Made by a program: the position numbers and the translations under genes
Shown: positions 16,837-44,698 of the stretch, piece after piece
Layout of the letters: each line of letters begins with the position of its first letter
How positions within the stretch are numbered: position 1 is the first letter of the stretch
Assembly (NCBI RefSeq): GCF_038396675.1
Contig: NC_088926.1
Location: 37,908,501 to 37,972,500 of the forward strand
Direction of reading: 5' to 3'
Origin: Hydra vulgaris
Taxonomy: Eukaryota > Cnidaria > Hydrozoa > Anthoathecata > Hydridae
Length of the DNA: 64,000 nt
The notes under the pieces: generated by a model
The model's database searches: none
Seen by the model: only the letters and a program-made list of their open reading frames with translations
What the model was told of the DNA's origin: nothing

Positions 16837-17499
16837 TAGATTTTATTAAATTTAAAAATGAAAGATTTTATTCTAACATTTACCTATGATGAATTTATTA
16901 AATTCAGCTTAATAAATTCATAGAATTCATTTGGCTGATTAAATGATACCAAAATTGGCCAACTTAAAATAAAAATTGGCCAAATTAATGTGACAATTTA
17001 GAATGAAAAAATGATAATTTAAAACGAAAAGTCCCAAATTAAAAGGTTACACTAAAAAGTTAGTTGAGTGGCCACGATTGCTCTAAACTCCTCTATAGTC
17101 CTCTTTTTAAAACAATTTTCTTTAAACCCTCTAATATCCTTGTTTTTTTATGAAGATTTTGTTTGGCCACTTCGTTATTTTAGTTAGACTTAAACTAATC
17201 TTAACTCCAATCCTTAACAAAAACAATGTGATTTCAAATTATATTCATAATATTTCACTATGGGCTAAAAATCAAGATGTAATCAATATTTTTTATCAGT
17301 TAATACCAGGTAACACTAAAATCTGGATATTACCATGATCACACAGACTTCACCATTTAAAGTATATCATATTCATGTCCAGATTTTATTGTTGTCTTTT
17401 ATTATCTGGTATTATCTGTAGTAAGTAAACTTCAACTTAAAAAGTTGATTTTTTTTTATTTAGTTAACTTTAGTTTGATGATTATGATTGTCTTTTTAG
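16837..17499. other. AT-rich DNA upstream of the DCTN6 exon, probably intron
   Basis: No coding exon recognised. A pyrimidine-rich acceptor (tgtctttttag) ends the stretch at 17499. The N-terminal exon or exons of DCTN6 were looked for here and not found. Confidence 0.5.
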
Positions 17500-17879
17500 G
17501 CAGCATTGTAATTGGTGATGGTAACTTAATAGAAGAACAGGTTACTATTATTAACACTCATCCTGGTCGCGTATTAGTAATTGGTCACTGCAATGTTTTT
17601 GAAATTGGTGCCCATGTAGAAGCGATTTCTATTGATAGCAATAATGTTTTTGAAGCCAAAACATTTATTGGGCCAAACGTTGTAGTAACAGATGGTTGTG
17701 TTGTTGGAGCGATATGTCGATTGACTGGAAAAGAAAAACTAACTGAAAATATAGTGATATATGGAGAAAAATGTTCAAGAAGAATTGCTTTTGAGAAAAC
17801 TGCTCCACAAATACTTCAGTTAGATTTTTTAGCAATAATTCTTCCAAATTACCACCACATGAAAGTAAAGAGTAAATGA
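17500..17879 (+). CDS. DCTN6: Dynactin subunit 6 (p27), terminal exon
   Basis: Starts after an AG acceptor at 17498-17499, in phase 1 (first codon GGC shared with the previous exon), and ends at TGA 17877-17879. The product is a left-handed parallel beta-helix of hexapeptide repeats (IVIGDGNLIEEQ, VLVIGHCNVFEIGAHVEA, NVFEAKTFIGPNVVVTDGCVVGA) followed by NIVIYGEKCSRRIAFEK and the family's C-terminal signature LQLDFLAIILPNYHHMK. DCTN6 sits in the pointed-end complex of dynactin with DCTN5, supporting dynein cargo attachment. About the last two thirds of the protein is present, and the upstream exon was not located. A likely poly(A) signal AATAAA lies at 17972-17977. Confidence 0.92.
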
Positions 17880-29874: not shown

Positions 29875-32800
29875 CTAAATGTATTAACACATAAAAAACA
29901 GTCAAAAAAATGTGAATAAAAGTAATGTGTGTAAATAAAATAAAAGTAATAAGTGCGTGCGTGCGTGCGTGTGTGTGTGTGTGTGTGTGTGTAACTAGTT
30001 AGATTGAAAAGCTAAAACATAACTTAAATAATTCACTTACTTATCTTTGACAACTTTATCAGAAGCCATCCAAATTTGCCGACATACGCAATAAAGAGTA
30101 AAATTAAATTCTTTTTCTTTGCAAAATCTGGTCAATTTTCCAGTCTTTGGAAACTCATTTAAGTGGTTTTCTATAACACTTTTAAATAAATGGTTTCTCA
30201 TTTCATCATTTTCAAATGAAATGTAGTGTGGATTTGAGCCGGTACAAGCAATGTGCTGTGCAAACGCCAATGCAAACAAACCACAGTCTACACCATTTGT
30301 TTGTTGTTGCACAGGTAAGACTCGTACTTTCAAACTGTCTTTGGTGCACTGCATTATTGCACAAATTTGTCTGACAACATAGTTCTTTATTTTGCCCTTA
30401 AACATGCTGTCTAACAGAAATACCTCACCTTCAGAGCACCCAAAAGTGCTTATTGTCAGCCAGTGTACATCACCATCATGTAATACCTGTACAAAGGAGC
30501 CCTTTACCACACAAAATGACAAATTTTGCCCCAAAACTGGATCCTGCAGACCAGAAACACCAGTTATCATTTTTTGTACCGAATGGATAACATTGTCTGA
30601 CAACATCTGATGGGTTGTAATATCATTCATATCATCTGATGAGAGTTTTGTCTGAGGAAGTAAAACCAGTTTTTCTACTAAATGTTCATCATTGTTATGT
30701 GAAATAACTATCTCATGGTCAACAACAAACCTTTCTTTGTTTACAGGCTCATCAACAATTTTATGTTCAATCGAGTCAACTAAGTAACTCTCTGCTACTA
30801 TAAACACTTTAGAAGCATTTGATGTTTTTTCTTTTTGTGATCCAACACGCTTAGTTTGAGCTTTTATTGGTTTCCGTACAGGAATAGAAATATGTTTTTT
30901 GCTTAATTTATTATTTGTTTGAGTGACAGGAATCCCAGATTCTCTTACTCTTCCTTTGTTTAGTTTGTCTATTAGAGTGGAAAGAGTTTTATGTAACATC
31001 ACTAGTTCATCAGAGTTTGCCTCAAATTCAAATGATAAGTTCTTAATAGTATTAAGCATCTCCCTAACATCGACACCAGAATAAATGGGAATATGTTTTT
31101 TACATATGTCATTCTGATCTTCTACAGTTGTATTTTTTTTTAAAGACAAAGATGACTCTTTTAAAGGTGAAAGCAACTTTGAAAAATTGAAAGGTTTTTT
31201 TTCATGGAATATATCATAGTTATCTTCATCTAAATTTAAGAATGGAGAATTTACATAAAGTTTTGATAATGTATTCCATGACCAAGCAGGATACTTTTTG
31301 AATATAGCAAAAAAATGTTTGCAGGGATAGCCTGTTGATATCCAATCATAACAAGTACATTTTGGCATAATATTTTCATCACCAAAATGCACAAAGTATT
31401 TTGTAGAAGAATCAATGGTACTAGATACAGTAAAGATACCATGTTTCATCATTACAACTGTGTTCAAATCCATATAATCAGCAGTAGATTTTCGCAACAA
31501 GCAATGCTTAACTAAACTACGAGGGCGATTATATAAATATTTTGGCACCCAACAGCCATATCTCCTGTATCTTGCATCCATTTTGAAGTTGGCATCAGTG
31601 TAGCTAAATTGAATAGATAAAACTTAATAAAAATAAAAAGATTATATTAAAATCATTACTGTGAACTTTTAAATTGACAATAGTCCCTTTCAAACATTAG
31701 TTCAATGACTTAACTTTTCTTTTAAACTAACCTTTCTAGCTTATCAGTGAAGAATTCTTCAATTAATAAAGTTAACATGCCTGTCAAAGAAGAGTTGTTA
31801 TATTTCTTTAAATAGCAATACTTAAATGACTCATTTTGTCTTTCAACACCATTGTTTGTGTTGCAATTAATTAGAAGACGATTTTGCCTATACCACCAGA
31901 TCCATCTCTAAACAATAAGAAAGAAATTCTACTTTTACATACCTTACCTTAAAATAATACAAACCAAACCAAATGATTGCCACAAAATGTATTCTCAAAT
32001 AAAGGTTTAATTATTTAAACTCATGTTTAATAATAAATACCTTTTTTATAGGCATCCAATACATTTCAACATAATGTTTTAATTTAGAAAAACCATCTTG
32101 ACACCAAAAGTCAGAAAGCTCTAACGCTTTTATAGCATCTACTTCTTCTTCACAAGATCTTGACCAAGCTATACATCTTAACAATTTTAAAATATCTTCT
32201 TTTTTACTAAAACAACCATTGGAAGTTTTTTTTATCCAACGATCCCATGCCTGTTCTCTATGAAAATCGCAGATGAATACTTCACACCCTAATAAGAGAA
32301 CAAAATTTTATTTAAAATGATTATGAACTTAAATCACATGAAATATAAAAAATGATTTCTTTAAAGAAGTTAATAACTTAAAAATTAAATAAATAAATAC
32401 AGATTGGAAAAACACACCAAAAAAAACAGATTCCAAAGCACGTATCTCCTCATTACAATAGTCAGTCATGCAGTATAAAGGTTGAAAATCAAGATTCCAA
32501 GATTTGATGACATTAAGTGCTTTTTTTATTGTATCAAAAGTTTCACTTTCAGATACAAATGTTGCAACTATTTGAAAATCAACATTAGTTTTAACAACTA
32601 AGAAAAACAATGGTAATGAATATCTAGTGGTCTTATATGTTGCATCTAAAAACACCATTTCATTACCATATTTATTTAGAAGTTTTTTTTGCCAACCAGC
32701 TTGATAAACAAACAACAGCTCATCCTTACTATGACTTCTTTTTGGATGGTAATGTATTTTGACAGTGGCGTCAGAAACCTTCCATTCATTTATTTTGTTT

Positions 32801-36319: not shown

Positions 36320-36779
36320 CACACACACATACGCATATAAACGTATACATACGCACATACATACATATACACACAACACACATACATACACATATACACA
36401 CACATTATACATGTACCCATACATATACCCACACATGCATACGTACATACACATTCAATTATTGTACAAGGACGACAAAAAAGCTGTACAAAAAAATAAA
36501 GATTCTTAAAAAAAAAAAGGTATAAAATAAAAAATATATACATAAGAGAGTATTTTTTAATAAGACTATTAACAGTGATATATTGCTTTTATTGGAGTTA
36601 TTATTCTAGTAGCTATCCAAATATTGTTTTTTTAATCTATTGAAAAAATTATAACGAGAAATTGAGTTTTCGGTTTTTCTCTTTTCAAAGAATGAGGGAG
36701 ATTGTTCCAAGCATTGGTGCACTAATGTTTAATTGATGCGCTGCCAAATTTAATTGTCCTAGTATGTTCTACAAAGATA

Positions 36780-38462
36780 TTGTTGCATGAGGAGGATCAT
36801 GAAGGAGGAAGTGAGAATGTTTGTTTAAGTTTAACTATAAATAACCAAATTATAACTGATAATGCCCTAATCACTAACTCATTTAATGACTATTTTTCCA
36901 CAATTGCAGAAAATCTTTCTAAAACAATCACCTCTCCTAGGCATAACTTTAACCACTACCTTAAAAATACTCCTTACACCTAGTGCAAAATACTCCTTAC
37001 ACCTAATACTCAAATATTGATCTTAGCATCAAAAGATTTAAGCTACCCTTTGAGCATTATGATGAATAAATCATTCGAAATTGGAGTGTTTCCTGACTTG
37101 TTTAAAGTTGCTGAAGTTGTACCTATTTTTAAAAGTGGATCCAAACTAGATCATTGTAACTATCAACCTATATCTTTACTTTCAAATATTGGCCAACTAA
37201 TTGAAAGATTCATGTTTAACAGACTAGAAAACTTTTAAAATCAATCTAATAGTTTCTATAGCCTTCAATTTGGCTTCCGCAAAAAGCACTGTACAAATCA
37301 AGCATTCATTGATATAACTGTGACAATACGTGAAGCTCTGGATCAAAAATAGTTTGCGGCTGGAGTGTTTGTTGATTTGCAGAAGGCGTTTGATACTGTT
37401 GATCATGAGATTTTGCTGACTAAATTAAATCATTATGGTGTCAGAGGAGTTGCTCTCAAATGGTTCAAGTCGTACCTGTATATGCGCTCTCAGTTTGTAA
37501 GCATTGGAAACACTTCCTCCAATACTAGGTTTACATGTATTGGTGTTCCACAAGGTTCAATCTTAGGTCCTCTACTCTTCCTCGTTTATATAAACGATCT
37601 GCACACATGTGTAAAATTCTCCAAAACATATCATTTTGCTGATGATACCAATCTTCTTATTGTTAGTAAATCTCTTAAAAAACTAAATAAAAATCTTAAT
37701 CATGACCTTGCATGTTTGGTACAATGGCTACGATCAAACAAAATTATACCAAGTCTGAAATAGTTATCTTTAAATCTCAAAGCAACAAAATTACAAAAAA
37801 ACTTAATTTCAGAATAAGCGGTAAAAAAATTAATACCATAAATAAGATCAAATAATATAGGCATTATATTAAATGAAAGTCTATTGTTTCACCGACAAGT
37901 AAAAGCAATATCTTCCAAACTAAGTCGAGCTAATAGAATGCTTTCCAAAGTAAGGCATTTTGTCAACTACGAAACATTGATAAATATTTGGCATGCTATA
38001 TTTAACTCCCACCTAAGGTATGGCTGCCAAATTTCATCTACTCATCTTAAAAATCTTATAAAACTTCAAAATAAATCTATACGAATAGTTCATTTCCAGC
38101 CAAGTAATTTTAATCCAGACTTATTGTATAGTTTATCAAATATCTTGAAGTTAGATGAACTCATCTTCTTATTAAACTGTGTTTTTGTGTGGGATATCAT
38201 TAATAATACCATGCCTATTGCTTACAACAACTATTTTAAATTCACAAGTGATATCCATAATTGCAAACTTAGGTCAACATCTTGTTATAAACTAGCTACC
38301 TTCAAAAAAACTAGCAAATATGGTATTCAATCAACTAAATACCAATCAATTCACTCTTGGAACTCTCTGCCACTTTCAATAAAAATAAATCTTCCAAACA
38401 TTACTAGAAATGCTTTCATTGCCAATATCAAAAAATTTATCCTTCATAAAAATACTCAATAA
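36780..38462 (+). pseudogene. LINE reverse transcriptase, in one frame but with stops
   Basis: All pieces lie in the same frame: NALITNSFNDYFSTIAENL (pre-RT), [49 protein letters not shown] (first Asp motif), [29 protein letters not shown] (catalytic FADD), then the C-terminal ANRMLSKVRHF and WNSLPLSIK regions. Stops fall near 36981, 37238, 37351, 37763 and in the 37770-37880 gap. A 17-bp direct duplication (aaaatactccttacacc) at about 36964-36998 marks an internal rearrangement where RT motifs 0-1 should lie. Inactive. Confidence 0.9.
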
Positions 38463-39561: not shown

Positions 39562-39716
39562 GATTGATTGATTATTGTCAATAATCAATCAATTGATTGA
39601 TTATTGTCAATAATCAATCAATTGATTGATTATTGTCAATAATCAATCAATTGATTGATTATTGTCAATAATCAATCAATTGATTGATTATTGTCAATAA
39701 TCATTTATGTCAATAA
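39562..39716. repeat. 29-bp palindromic satellite, five units
   Basis: Units with ttattgtcaataa start at 39572, 39601, 39630, 39659 and 39688, an exact 29-bp period. Each unit is a 27-nt near-perfect palindrome (tgattgattattg / caataatcaatca around one central base). Half-units continue to about 39765. It lies at the 3' end of the LINE and 300 bp upstream of the deaminase-like gene. It may have grown from the LINE's tgat tail. Confidence 0.95.
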
Positions 39717-40005: not shown

Positions 40006-40048
40006 GGACTTTGATCGTATTCTGAGTGATACTTTCTTGCGCTGACCT
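40006..40048 (+). promoter_or_regulatory. Conserved 43-bp block before deaminase-like gene
   Basis: Matches the minus strand of 22616-22658 at 42 of 43 bases and ends 15 bases before the ATG at 40064. A 5' UTR or core promoter segment is likely. A TATA-like aaatataaaatgg directly precedes the start codon but is too close to serve as TATA box for it. Confidence 0.6.
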
Positions 40049-40063
40049 ATCTAAAAATATAAA

Positions 40064-41494
40064 ATGGATGACGAGAGAAAACGTAAAATGGATGGTTCAA
40101 GCGAAAGTTCTGATGCTGGCCAGTTGAGCATTCAAGATAGTACGCAAATATACAATGCCATTCCGGATATTAAACAAAATCTGATCAAGACTAAAAATGA
40201 TTTAAATCTAAAACGAGATCTAGTTGGGGATCCCTATGTAGATCTAAAACGAGAACCAGTTTATAATGACGATGTAGATTATAAGGAACTTTTTGAATCG
40301 GATTTTTATTGCTATACCAATATTGAAAATAAAGTAAATCGTGATAAATCCGAAAATAAGACAGATGTAAGTAATACAGAATTCAATAAATTGGCTAAAG
40401 ATGTGTTTAATATATGTGGCAAAAAATATATTTGTGCTACGTTAGTACCATTACCTCCTCATAAGATGCTTATTTCTTGTAACCGTGTAATTAAAAATGA
40501 ATTCCGTGATGACATAAAATCGAAAATAAACAAAAGCCCATATATTAAAAAAGCATATTCCCATAATCAGGAAATTCACCCTGTCTTTCTTCCTAGTGGC
40601 AGTACAGAATGTGCACATGCAGAGATGTATTGTTTGCAATGGCTTTTTGATCATAAAGAATCAATTGAAATTTCAAACATAAAAGAAATATCGTTTTCAA
40701 CTTCGAAAATACCTTGTTTGTTGTGTCATACTTTGTTGGTCGAATTTAAAAAATTATACATGCCCAATCTCATTTTTGATAAGAATCATGGAAACCTATG
40801 TACAAAATGGTCTTGTAAAAATTTTACATTTTTAACGAATGAAATGTATTTCAAACTTCATTCCAATTTAATTAAAGAATATTCGCCTTATTTCGAACAG
40901 AGTGAAGATAGAAAATACAAGTTTAGTCATAAAAAGTTCAATGAAAGAATATTTAAAAGTAATGATATAGAGATGTTAACTTCGCACTATAATCAAGCGA
41001 TGAACCTACACACACCTACCAAGCCATCTGATTTTTCTGATGAGGAGATTTTAAAAACTAAGAAAGAACCTTTATGTATTTCTGTAATGTAAGTGTAACA
41101 TAATTTACATAACTAGTTATTTAACTTAGTTATTTTGAAAATCATAGTTTTTTAACGAGGTGTTTACATATAAAAATTTCATCAAATTTTTTGTTTTAGT
41201 AAAGAAAAGAACTGTATAGAAAATGAAGAATCAAATTATCACTATACAGTAGAAAATGACAAGGAAGAAAACAAAGATAGTAAAGCATGTGAAGATGACA
41301 TAGAATTTTCAGGAGATGTGAATAAATTGTTATGTAATTATGAAATGTAAGTATACTTACAAATCTTTTAATGAGTTGAAATGTTATAAATTGTTAAAAT
41401 GTTATGTTGATTTAGTTTACTCTGTTTTAGTAAAGAAATAAATTTTACAGAAAACGAAGACGGAAATAGTAAAGCATGCGAAAATGAGGACTAA
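40064..41494 (+). CDS. Deaminase-fold protein (HAE / PCLLC zinc site), 3 exons
   Basis: Exons 40064-41088, 41200-41346 and 41431-41494, each junction GT..AG (gtaagt donors, tttag acceptors) and in phase, give 411 residues ending at TAA. Residues 185-187 are HAE (ECAHAEMYCLQWLF) and 217-221 are PCLLC (TSKIPCLLCHTLLVEF), the His/Glu and Cys-x2-Cys zinc site of the cytidine/nucleotide deaminase superfamily; the 31-residue spacing from His to the first Cys is within the range for these enzymes. The N-terminal 110 residues are charged and low in structure, with KRKMDG as possible nuclear signal and a short internal repeat (LKRD..DPYVDLKREP). The C-terminus is acidic. Subfamily (AID/APOBEC-like, OTT_1508-like or other) and substrate are not known. 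No frameshifts, so probably functional. Confidence 0.75.
41200..41494 (+). CDS. Paralogous tail exons of the deaminase-like gene
   Basis: Exons 2 and 3 both start TAAAGAAA after a tttag acceptor, share the motif (N/D)SKACE(D/N), and use the same intron phase (2 bases before, 1 after). The introns before each also begin with the same gtaagt and end in similar cttgttttag-like sequence. Exon 2 is 147 bases (49 codons), so it can be skipped without frameshift. The tail therefore arose by exon duplication. It is acidic (EENKDSKACEDD) with no known domain. Confidence 0.7.
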
Positions 41495-43230
41495 CTGGTG
41501 AGTTGGAGAGTCTGGCTGCGCAGTAGCTATCGGAATTGTAGTTGTAGCAATTATATATTTTTGAATATTATTGTTCCTCTTTTTATTGATTTTTTTTTTA
41601 CTTTTAAGTATATCTTTCCTAAAAATTCCTCGATTTTAATATTCTAATAACTTTTCTTTTTAAAAATTTTTCCTTTTTCTTCTCTTTATTCTTTTGTTTA
41701 TTTTATTGTTAATATTATTATTATATTTTATATTTATATTTTAATTATTTTGTTAATATTATTATTACTATTAATTTTATTTTTGTTATAATTACTGTTA
41801 TTAACATTATTATTGTCTCACGTTTTTAATGATACACAAAAACACAGGACAATGCAGAAAATAAACAAAACTTAAAAATTATTCTTTATATTTTCTTTCA
41901 ATAACGGATCTTTTTCATTATTATTTTCCATTTTCAAATTTTTTTTCTTTTATTTGGGGTAGATGAGGCTCCTTAGCTGTGATGAAGGCAACTTATCTAG
42001 GAGAAGGAAAACTCTGATATAAAATCCCCACGTTAAAGTGGTCTGGGTAGGAAGAGCTCATTAACCTTGGCTGGTAATCTTCCTAGTGATAGTGTCACGA
42101 TAAAAATACTCAGTCCTGTTCTGTAAAATAGGTTAATTTCGGAAGAGCATCCAGTTGTAAAAATTTGCTCCAAACTTTTCAATATATAATTATTATTAAA
42201 AAAAAGATAATATGAAAAAAACTTTAAAAAAAAAAACCTTGTACTTTGTTTTAAGTTCTTTTGTTTCTTTTAATTTTTTTGTTTTGGTTTTTCGTAACTT
42301 TTTTTGCTTTATTCTTTTTTTTTTCTTTTATTTATCTATTATTTTTGTTCAAAACTTCTATTAAAACTCTTCTTTTTTTTTCTTTAACTATGAAATTTTT
42401 TTAATTCGTTATTCCGAAAACACAAAAACACACGACAATTTTTTGTTTTATGTCATTGTTAGTTGTTACGTTTTATCAGTTTTTAACTGTTTGTAACTGT
42501 GTCTTTGCATATACAACTATTTTATATATGCTATTATTTTCATAATTATCATTAGGTGTTAACTTTACATTTACACCTTGAAATGTAACAACTATTTCAG
42601 AAATATATATTGATTACAATCTGTTTTTTTGCTATTTTCTTGCATCAGTTTATTAAAAAAAAGTATTCAATTTTTATCAAATTTTACGTTTTCTTTTTAC
42701 AATATTATATTATCTACTTTTCAGCTAACTGCATCACACAATTAACCTTAACTTATGTAACATTTATTCAATAGTAAAGAAACTCAAAAATGATAGGTTA
42801 TAACACTACAAAAGCAAAGCTTCTAGATGAAAATTAAACTTCATTAATGTAACAATTTTCTTTGCTTTTTTGATGCCACGTACAAAAGCAGTATATCTTG
42901 AGATGTCTAAAAGTCATGATTTTAATTTTTTTTTAATGGACCTATATGTAAAAAACTCTATAATGCAAAAAAAAGGTTTTCTTTTTTAAATCTTATTTAT
43001 TTGCATCAAAATTTTATAATAATAAAATTCAAAAAGTGTAACTATATGCTTAGTTCTAAACTAATCCTATAAATGCCTAAAAAATGTAAGCCTAAAATGA
43101 AATAAGAATTAACTTGAGAGAATTATCTTAAACACATACCATCTCTTAAAGGCCAATAATATGACCTTGATACATGAATGTTATTTAAAAGTCTAAAACA
43201 ATATTTTCATTAACTAGTCCGATCCATGGA
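41495..43230. other. AT-rich stretch with a SINE/LINE-tail-like insert
   Basis: T-rich, no gene. The 41960-42190 part is GC-richer and listed separately. The remainder is homopolymer-rich, including several runs of t and a. Confidence 0.5.
41960..42190 (+). mobile_element. SINE-like or LINE-derived segment
   Basis: Shares the words ctc(t/c)gatataaaa and cgataaaaatactca (42098-42112) with the 5' region of the LINE at 62 kb (62159-62173), in the same order. It ends with ggaagagcatccagttgtaaaa and a run of a, a type of tail seen in animal SINEs. Probably a short non-autonomous retroelement related to that LINE. Confidence 0.5.
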
Positions 43231-43455
43231 CAGGGGCGGATCCATAGGGGGACGAGGGTTGGCAAGAGGGGGCAATTGGATCAATGGTCACCCTTACATG
43301 ATTTCAAAAAAAAAATTAAAAGTGTGGTTAAGACTATAAGACTGATATACAAACAAAAATTAACCAAAAAAGTTTTATGATTTGTGGGAATTGCCGAAAA
43401 AATCTGAAAATCGACCACCCCACCCCCCTTACTAAATGGTCTGGATTCGCCCTTG
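43231..43455. mobile_element. hAT-type MITE
   Basis: Starts CAGGGGCGGATCCAT and ends with the inverted counterpart (ATCCAGA-type, GGATTCGCCCTTG), 225 bp long, with an internal run of C (ccaccccacccccctt). The CAGGGGCGGAT terminus is typical of non-autonomous hAT elements. No 8-bp target duplication was visible at the flanks. Confidence 0.65.
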
Positions 43456-44698
43456 TCAATTGCGAATCTTGCTCCATTTTACTTAAAGTTTTCATGTTTG
43501 ACTCTTGATAACTAGTAGAAAAACTAGTTCCTATGATTTCATTTTTGCAGAAATCAAACATGCAGATGCCGTACGTATATGGTTGTTTGTTGTTCTATGA
43601 AGGCTAGCAATTGGAGTTAATCTTTTCACAGTCCGTTAATACCATCACAGGGTGATTTACCGTGACTTGTTGCAAAGTGGAACTTTGTACATTTTATAGA
43701 AAAATCCTGTTCATGGTGGCATATATTTATGAGTTGTTAGCAGTTTTTAGAGTTTCACACCCACCTAAAAAATAATGAATAGTTTCTATTTACTGAGTAA
43801 TATTGATTTTAATATGCTCAATTGTTAACTTTATCACATGGTATACCGTGTCTACATCATGCAGTATGTTATCAGAGATAAAAAATTGAATCGCATTTGG
43901 GGACATTGTTTACTTTGTAATGCACAACTGTTGGATGGAATGTTGCTTGAATTTTATTCCTGTGAAACTTTGTGTTGTGTCTTGTACAATAAATTCGCAA
44001 ATTTCTGAATAAATATAGTGGACCGAAAACTATAGTGAACTGAAAAAATATAGTGGTTACAGTACGACCTAGCTCATTTTTTAATTTTATTAAATAAGCA
44101 GCTTGACTATTTGCAATGTAAGAATGAACAGTAAGTTTTTGTCAACTATTTATCACAGTACGAATGAAGCTGCTTGTGGTTTCAGTTAGACTTACTAGTT
44201 CAGATCGGTCTATTGTCTGACCCCTCCAAAGGGTTCAAGAGGCCTGGGTCATTTTAAGATTATAAGGACTATGGTGAGTAGTAAGCGTGTGTTTGGAGAC
44301 TAAAAAAAAATGCCCGATTTCTATGCAAAGCAACTTTTTGAGTGAAGGCCCAGGTCAGAAAGCCCTCCTGACCCCCTCCTTCCTGAGATAAAGGCTGTCT
44401 GCTTTTTGCTGTTGTTACACGTCGTTTGTAATCTATAAAAAAACTACATTTACTTCATCAATATCATCTTGATAATACAACTCATTCTCAATATGACGCC
44501 CTAATATAACATCTTTAGGACACAAATGGCAACGATGTATCATGCAGTTTTTGTTAGCTCTACTACAGACAATTATATCAATACGTAATCCTTTGGTAGT
44601 TTAATAATAATTTAATAAATAATCTTTTGATAGTTTAACTAATTATTAACACAGGTATGCATACTAATTGTATGCGTACCTAATGCACCTACTCTAAC
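43456..44698. other. Non-coding stretch, no gene seen
   Basis: Slightly less AT-rich than average. No supported coding region, repeat partner or hairpin found in the window. Confidence 0.4.

Follow-up and report, generated by a model that had tools for sequence, protein, structure and literature searches.

A three-exon gene for a putative OTT_1508-like deaminase in Hydra vulgaris, in a family that appears to duplicate and decay quickly

Fungal OLD proteins are described as A-to-I (adenosine-to-inosine) mRNA editors with an HXE...CXXC centre that act in an antiviral circuit (PMC12754623). During virus infection, OLD corrects a premature stop in neighbouring ZAO transcripts, and activation of the OLD-ZAO pair is characterised as self-sacrificing (PMC12754623). 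According to PMC13327615, the OTT system is not found in other eukaryotic lineages, and a putative OTT_1508-like deaminase has been named in Leishmania (PMC12315365). For Hydra vulgaris, a single ADAR of the ADAR2 clade and the loss of ADAR1 have been reported, with editing that is high in repeats and recoding sites that are scarce or absent (PMC9989829). Here we describe a candidate deaminase gene of H. vulgaris, located in a 64,000-nucleotide stretch of contig NC_088926.1 (hereafter the window; C7:37908501-37972500 in an assembly of 911.5 Mb and 15 contigs), and compare it with these systems.

The gene lies at 40064..41494 of the window. Its three exons, separated by introns with GT-AG borders, join to 1236 bases that read without interruption as 411 codons and a stop. 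This bears out the intact frame of 411 residues proposed in an earlier annotation made from the DNA letters alone (the original prediction). A stop-to-stop reading of the window contains a 345-codon frame at 40055-41092, and the G+C content of the gene is 38%, 27% and 24% at the first, second and third codon positions. The exons are as follows.

40064..41088, forward strand: exon 1, which covers the entire deaminase match and codes for residues 1-341 plus bases 1 and 2 of codon 342.
41200..41346, forward strand: exon 2, encoding an acidic tail; GT-AG borders, open joined frame, and the same junctions in the database protein P0002.
41431..41494, forward strand: exon 3, including the stop codon; part of it is a tandem duplicate of exon 2.

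A comparison of exon 3 with exon 2 showed matching stretches of 45 and 32 bases at about 80%. P0002 (uncharacterized protein LOC136082750, Hydra vulgaris; 179 residues) shares both splice junctions with the window gene. Its letters are those of a broken duplicate of the gene from just past the internal stop of that duplicate, where the duplicate is identical to the window. Because P0002 appears to be a product of this duplicate and not of the window copy, it supports the splicing of the window gene indirectly.

Exon 1 matched the Pfam family PF14441 (OTT_1508-like deaminase) at 28.7 bits, against a cut-off of 27, with an E value of 1.3e-6 in a library of 24,736 Pfam models, which makes a chance resemblance unlikely; in a profile search of the genome, the gene scored 31.6 bits. 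A second match, to PF00383, was weak (14.8 bits, cut-off 25), and no further Pfam family matched exon 1 at E up to 10. The match and the shared motifs are placed as follows.

40616..40816, forward strand: PF14441 match, residues 185-251.
40607..40633, forward strand: ECAHAEMYC, residues 182-190, holding H185 and E187.
40709..40729, forward strand: IPCLLCH, residues 216-222, holding C218 and C221.
40784..40810, forward strand: NHGNLCTKW, residues 241-249, a third shared motif, reached by four of five aligned family rows.

The H-x-E and C-x-x-C residues of the PF14441 family, which serve zinc binding and proton shuttling, are thus present as H185, E187, C218 and C221. When all six frames of the window were searched for H-[AVCLIP]-E followed by 15-60 stop-free residues and C-x-x-C, the window gene was the one match. 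The first two motifs had been taken in the original prediction for a deaminase-superfamily signature in a cnidarian, and both signature and host are supported. The protein had also been called unassigned, a label that no longer applies because PF14441 is matched over its curated cut-off. We regard the assignment of gene and family as strong, and membership of the OTT_1508-like family as very likely.

A further correction to the original prediction is that the gene belongs to a multi-locus family within one genome. Searching the Hydra genome with PF14441 returned 44 rows (E up to 10). The cut-off was exceeded at seven places, spread over four chromosomes: C10, C7 (the window gene and its duplicate) and C15 with two each, and C5 with one. 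In 14 control genomes there were none. As read, two of the seven are open frames and five bear a stop or frameshift. PF14441 was also over cut-off in the C10 and C15 members. C218, C221, F228 and K229 are invariant across five aligned Hydra members, two rows being fragments that start downstream of the HAE motif. At the position of NHGNLCTKW, other members have GSH plus RR (C10) or GN (C15), with a W nearby. The window protein and one C15 copy share about 24% identity in a collinear match over residues 97-297 (E values 0.009 and 0.019 by tblastn against that one locus alone).

The members differ in their state of preservation. On C10, an 849-codon open frame (L045:2847-5396, about 30.364-30.366 Mb) contains three 249-codon units in the same frame. 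Units one and two agree at 743 of 747 bases; HAE is present in all three units and the C-x-x-C half only in the last. This frame may represent a working second member, an expansion of recent date or an effect of the assembly. Several additional Pfam rows for it, three of which exceed their cut-offs (ketopantoate transferase, URO-D, PIN_5), each match in three stretches and look like products of the threefold repeat. Three weak hits of the C10 unit to secretion chaperone structures (E 0.1-0.3), away from the deaminase match, were taken as chance. A neighbour about 25 kb from the C10 frame has a stop and frame changes. The two C15 copies lie about 93 kb apart and show frame changes relative to each other; those of a single base in one-letter runs could be assembly errors. 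The ratio of nonsynonymous to synonymous substitution rates (dN/dS) between the C15 copies is 0.54 (233 codons) and 0.60 (128 codons), and therefore some protein-level constraint has acted on the family in the past. A tandem array on C5 (C5:44003140-44033694; L047-L050) of weak matches holds 21 of the 44 PF14441 rows. The nine rows read all have stops in the surrounding frame, and the array apparently consists of decayed exon copies. We read these loci as a small Hydra family with rapid duplication and decay.

When the genome was searched with exon 1, the window gene, three rows of its inverted duplicate and three weak rows, on C15, C9 and C8, were recovered. Against the protein database, a profile of the five Hydra members matched P0002 alone among 3248 candidates, and none of 4437 candidates matched the C10 unit at E up to 10. 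These protein-database searches detect only entries that share five-residue words with the query and are 0.55-1.75 times as long, so that they do not imply absence of the family elsewhere.

The closest relative of the window gene is the inverted duplicate, about 50 kb away on C7 (rows at C7:37897081-37901167). The two loci share one block.

40048..44242, forward strand: block common to the window and the inverted duplicate (C7 about 37.895-37.901 Mb), with 42243-43131 unmatched.

This block starts 16 bases before the start codon of the window gene. A transposon interrupts the duplicate: about 3.1 kb are inserted, with inverted ends and flanked on either side by TA. The duplicate also has gaps of 4 and 18 bases, is frameshifted, and carries a stop in place of codon 229. 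Identity between the copies is patchy, reaching 100% in the introns and in exons 2 and 3 and falling to 74-88% in parts of exon 1, as expected if stretches had been re-copied by gene conversion. At C7 about 37.897 Mb, P0002 is the database protein that represents the broken duplicate; for the window gene itself, a search with exon 1 at E up to 1 found no entry.

Nei-Gojobori counts between the window gene and its broken duplicate, over 403 gap-free codons of 412, gave 77.3 nonsynonymous and 11.7 synonymous changes for the whole frame (dN/dS 1.52). The original prediction had concluded recent function from the intact frame. Intactness alone is insufficient to show present function, and this ratio against the broken duplicate gives no sign of purifying selection on the whole protein. 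The changes are unevenly spread, with 68.3 nonsynonymous to 6.7 synonymous outside the catalytic half, 24 to 1 in residues 111-180, 2.5 to 1.5 in residues 181-235 (ratio 0.37) and 6.5 to 3.5 in residues 236-281 (ratio 0.37). We simulated neutral substitution under two spectra, one derived from non-coding differences and the other from coding ones. The observed nonsynonymous count was reached in 0.024 and 0.032 of 1500 runs for the whole frame, in 0.0013 and 0 of 1500 runs for residues 35-180 plus 282-325, and in 0.945 and 0.942 of 3000 runs for residues 181-281. These regions were chosen after viewing the alignment, and one of the two copies is a pseudogene. The pattern is suggestive of past diversification around a less-changed catalytic half.

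The same comparison bears on whether the window gene is recently or currently losing function, its intact frame having yet to decay as those of its relatives have. Such a course would fit the stops or frameshifts at five of the seven places over cut-off, the broken state of the duplicate 50 kb away and a dN/dS between the C7 copies that is not below 1. It fits less well with 411 open codons, both catalytic motifs and matching splice borders, or with the finding that nonsynonymous changes between the copies are in excess and not at a neutral ratio. Any decay would also be difficult to date, given re-copying between the C7 loci. We judge such loss to be unlikely, if deserving of some weight, and function of this copy to be likely.

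Our preferred reading, held tentatively, is that the window contains a Hydra gene for an OLD-type nucleic-acid deaminase, perhaps one that edits adenosine in RNA in a conflict role with viruses or transposons, as one member of a fast duplicating and decaying family. The protein is probably a working enzyme. H185, C218 and C221 would hold a zinc ion, and zinc-bound water, activated by E187, would take the amino group off a base. By analogy with fungal OLD, the substrate would most likely be adenosine in structured RNA, a choice we regard as possible rather than probable. The fast-changing flanks (residues 35-180 and 282-325) may form target- or partner-recognition surfaces, and their change may have been driven by conflict with viruses or transposons. 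A-to-I RNA editing in a conflict role is our best single guess, and an editing or defence role, as the original prediction had it, is plausible.

The likeness to OLD of the Neurospora crassa OLD-ZAO pair lies in the PF14441 family and the H-x-E ... C-x-x-C centre, OLD being compared through its family description rather than by direct alignment of fungal sequence. Unlike OLD, the Hydra gene resides in an animal, has three exons and encodes an acidic tail. Bacterial OTT_1508 and Leishmania proteins belong to the same Pfam family by name (PMC13327615, PMC12315365). ADAR shares the deaminase superfamily and, if our preferred reading is true, the A-to-I chemistry; neither an ADAR-type deaminase nor a double-stranded-RNA-binding domain was found at E up to 10 in exon 1, the part scanned.

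The superfamily also contains enzymes acting on cytosine, and an OTT_1508-type deaminase of cytosine in DNA or RNA, such as an APOBEC-like mutator of transposons or viruses, would fall in the same superfamily; the motifs do not reveal the substrate. The C10 member weakly matched the AID/APOBEC-like SNAD4 (19.5 bits, cut-off 27). The window protein, which shares the superfamily with SNAD4, did not: AID/APOBEC and SNAD profiles gave no match to exon 1 even at E up to 10, and the family members of described activity are A-to-I editors (PMC12754623). A cytosine substrate is, in our view, unlikely.

The self-sacrificing activation reported for OLD-ZAO (PMC12754623) would also agree with a toxin-derived effector that deaminates core RNA (tRNA or rRNA) and so halts the growth of infected cells. 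Against such an effector, the deaminase region is the sole recognised part of exon 1, and NCBIfam and PADLOC yielded no match, with PHROGs giving rows only at E 0.13-0.15, for C10 and C15 members. We consider it improbable.

Several observations weigh against our preferred reading. The PF14441 score of exon 1 is just 1.7 bits above the cut-off; PDB sequences gave no match to exon 1 or to the family profile; and the lack of an own database entry for exon 1 was seen among 871 candidates from a 5.8-billion protein database. The catalytic half (residues 181-281) has 14 changes, with 9 nonsynonymous where 11 are expected under neutrality. Its conservation is weakly shown, because the changes are few and identical stretches can stem from gene conversion. 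Decay of the duplicate, slight misalignment or a third copy that escaped notice could account for part of the nonsynonymous excess. Finally, a ZAO-like array of C2H2 zinc fingers was not found beside the gene when the window and eight loci were scanned for the motif in six frames, a scan that a split or unusual finger gene would escape. The sole good C2H2 motif lay near a C15 copy, in a frame that we take to be a transposase.

As to the origin of the gene, no bacterial source was found: PF14441 was over cut-off in none of three sets of prokaryote genomes, numbering 10, 395 and 294. The two larger sets represent two phyla only: in the phylum of an Aquimarina record, 3 of 395 genomes matched at E up to 0.001, and in the phylum reached via a Planctomycetota record, 1 of 294 matched, none over cut-off in either. 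The search for a viral source gave no relative in viral contigs and no match in phage records at E up to 0.1. Contamination was ruled out because the gene has introns and sits in a 41-Mb contig. Carriage as a transposon passenger was also rejected: the sequence from 41495 to about 41919 matches only the two C7 copies, and therefore the coding part is not a high-copy repeat (40 of 723 candidates were scored in this repeat search, with the upstream flank and 43100-44240 outside it). Further downstream, 41947-42197 is a dispersed repeat with tens of copies on many contigs. Several of these copies have a second match nearby on the opposite strand, and the repeat is perhaps a foldback element.

The original prediction described most nearby coding sequence as broken, which fits what was looked at: the reverse-transcriptase stretch at 36726-38459 is broken up among several frames. 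A repeat of a 29-base unit, a nearly perfect palindrome that would form hairpins if transcribed, lies about 360 bases upstream of the start codon. Other features of the window are as follows.

39563-39703: the 29-base palindromic unit, 4.9 times at 100% identity.
30040-31623, reverse strand: open frame of 528 codons that matches SWIM zinc-finger and Ulp1-type protease profiles above their cut-offs, probably part of a MULE-type transposon.
17361-17876, forward strand: 172-codon frame with a hexapeptide-repeat match below cut-off, apparently a dynactin subunit 6 homologue.

That Hydra has seven places at which the family exceeds the Pfam cut-off speaks against the statement in PMC13327615 that OTT is not found in other eukaryotes. 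Among the open-licence papers searched, 5 contain OTT_1508, with titles that concern fungi, Leishmania and RNA editing in general, and none contains it together with Hydra; the 2011 superfamily survey or sequence databases may list animal members. A bolder proposal, which we put forward as speculative and rather doubtful, is that Hydra, for which loss of ADAR1 is reported, uses a second, OLD-type A-to-I enzyme, and that duplication and gene conversion diversify its copies in an arms race with viruses or transposons. If true, this would be an RNA-editing defence of a kind so far described from fungi. Hydra offers a tractable organism for asking whether animals have a non-ADAR mRNA-editing enzyme, and the family bears on how viral and repeat RNA is handled in an animal reported to keep only ADAR2.
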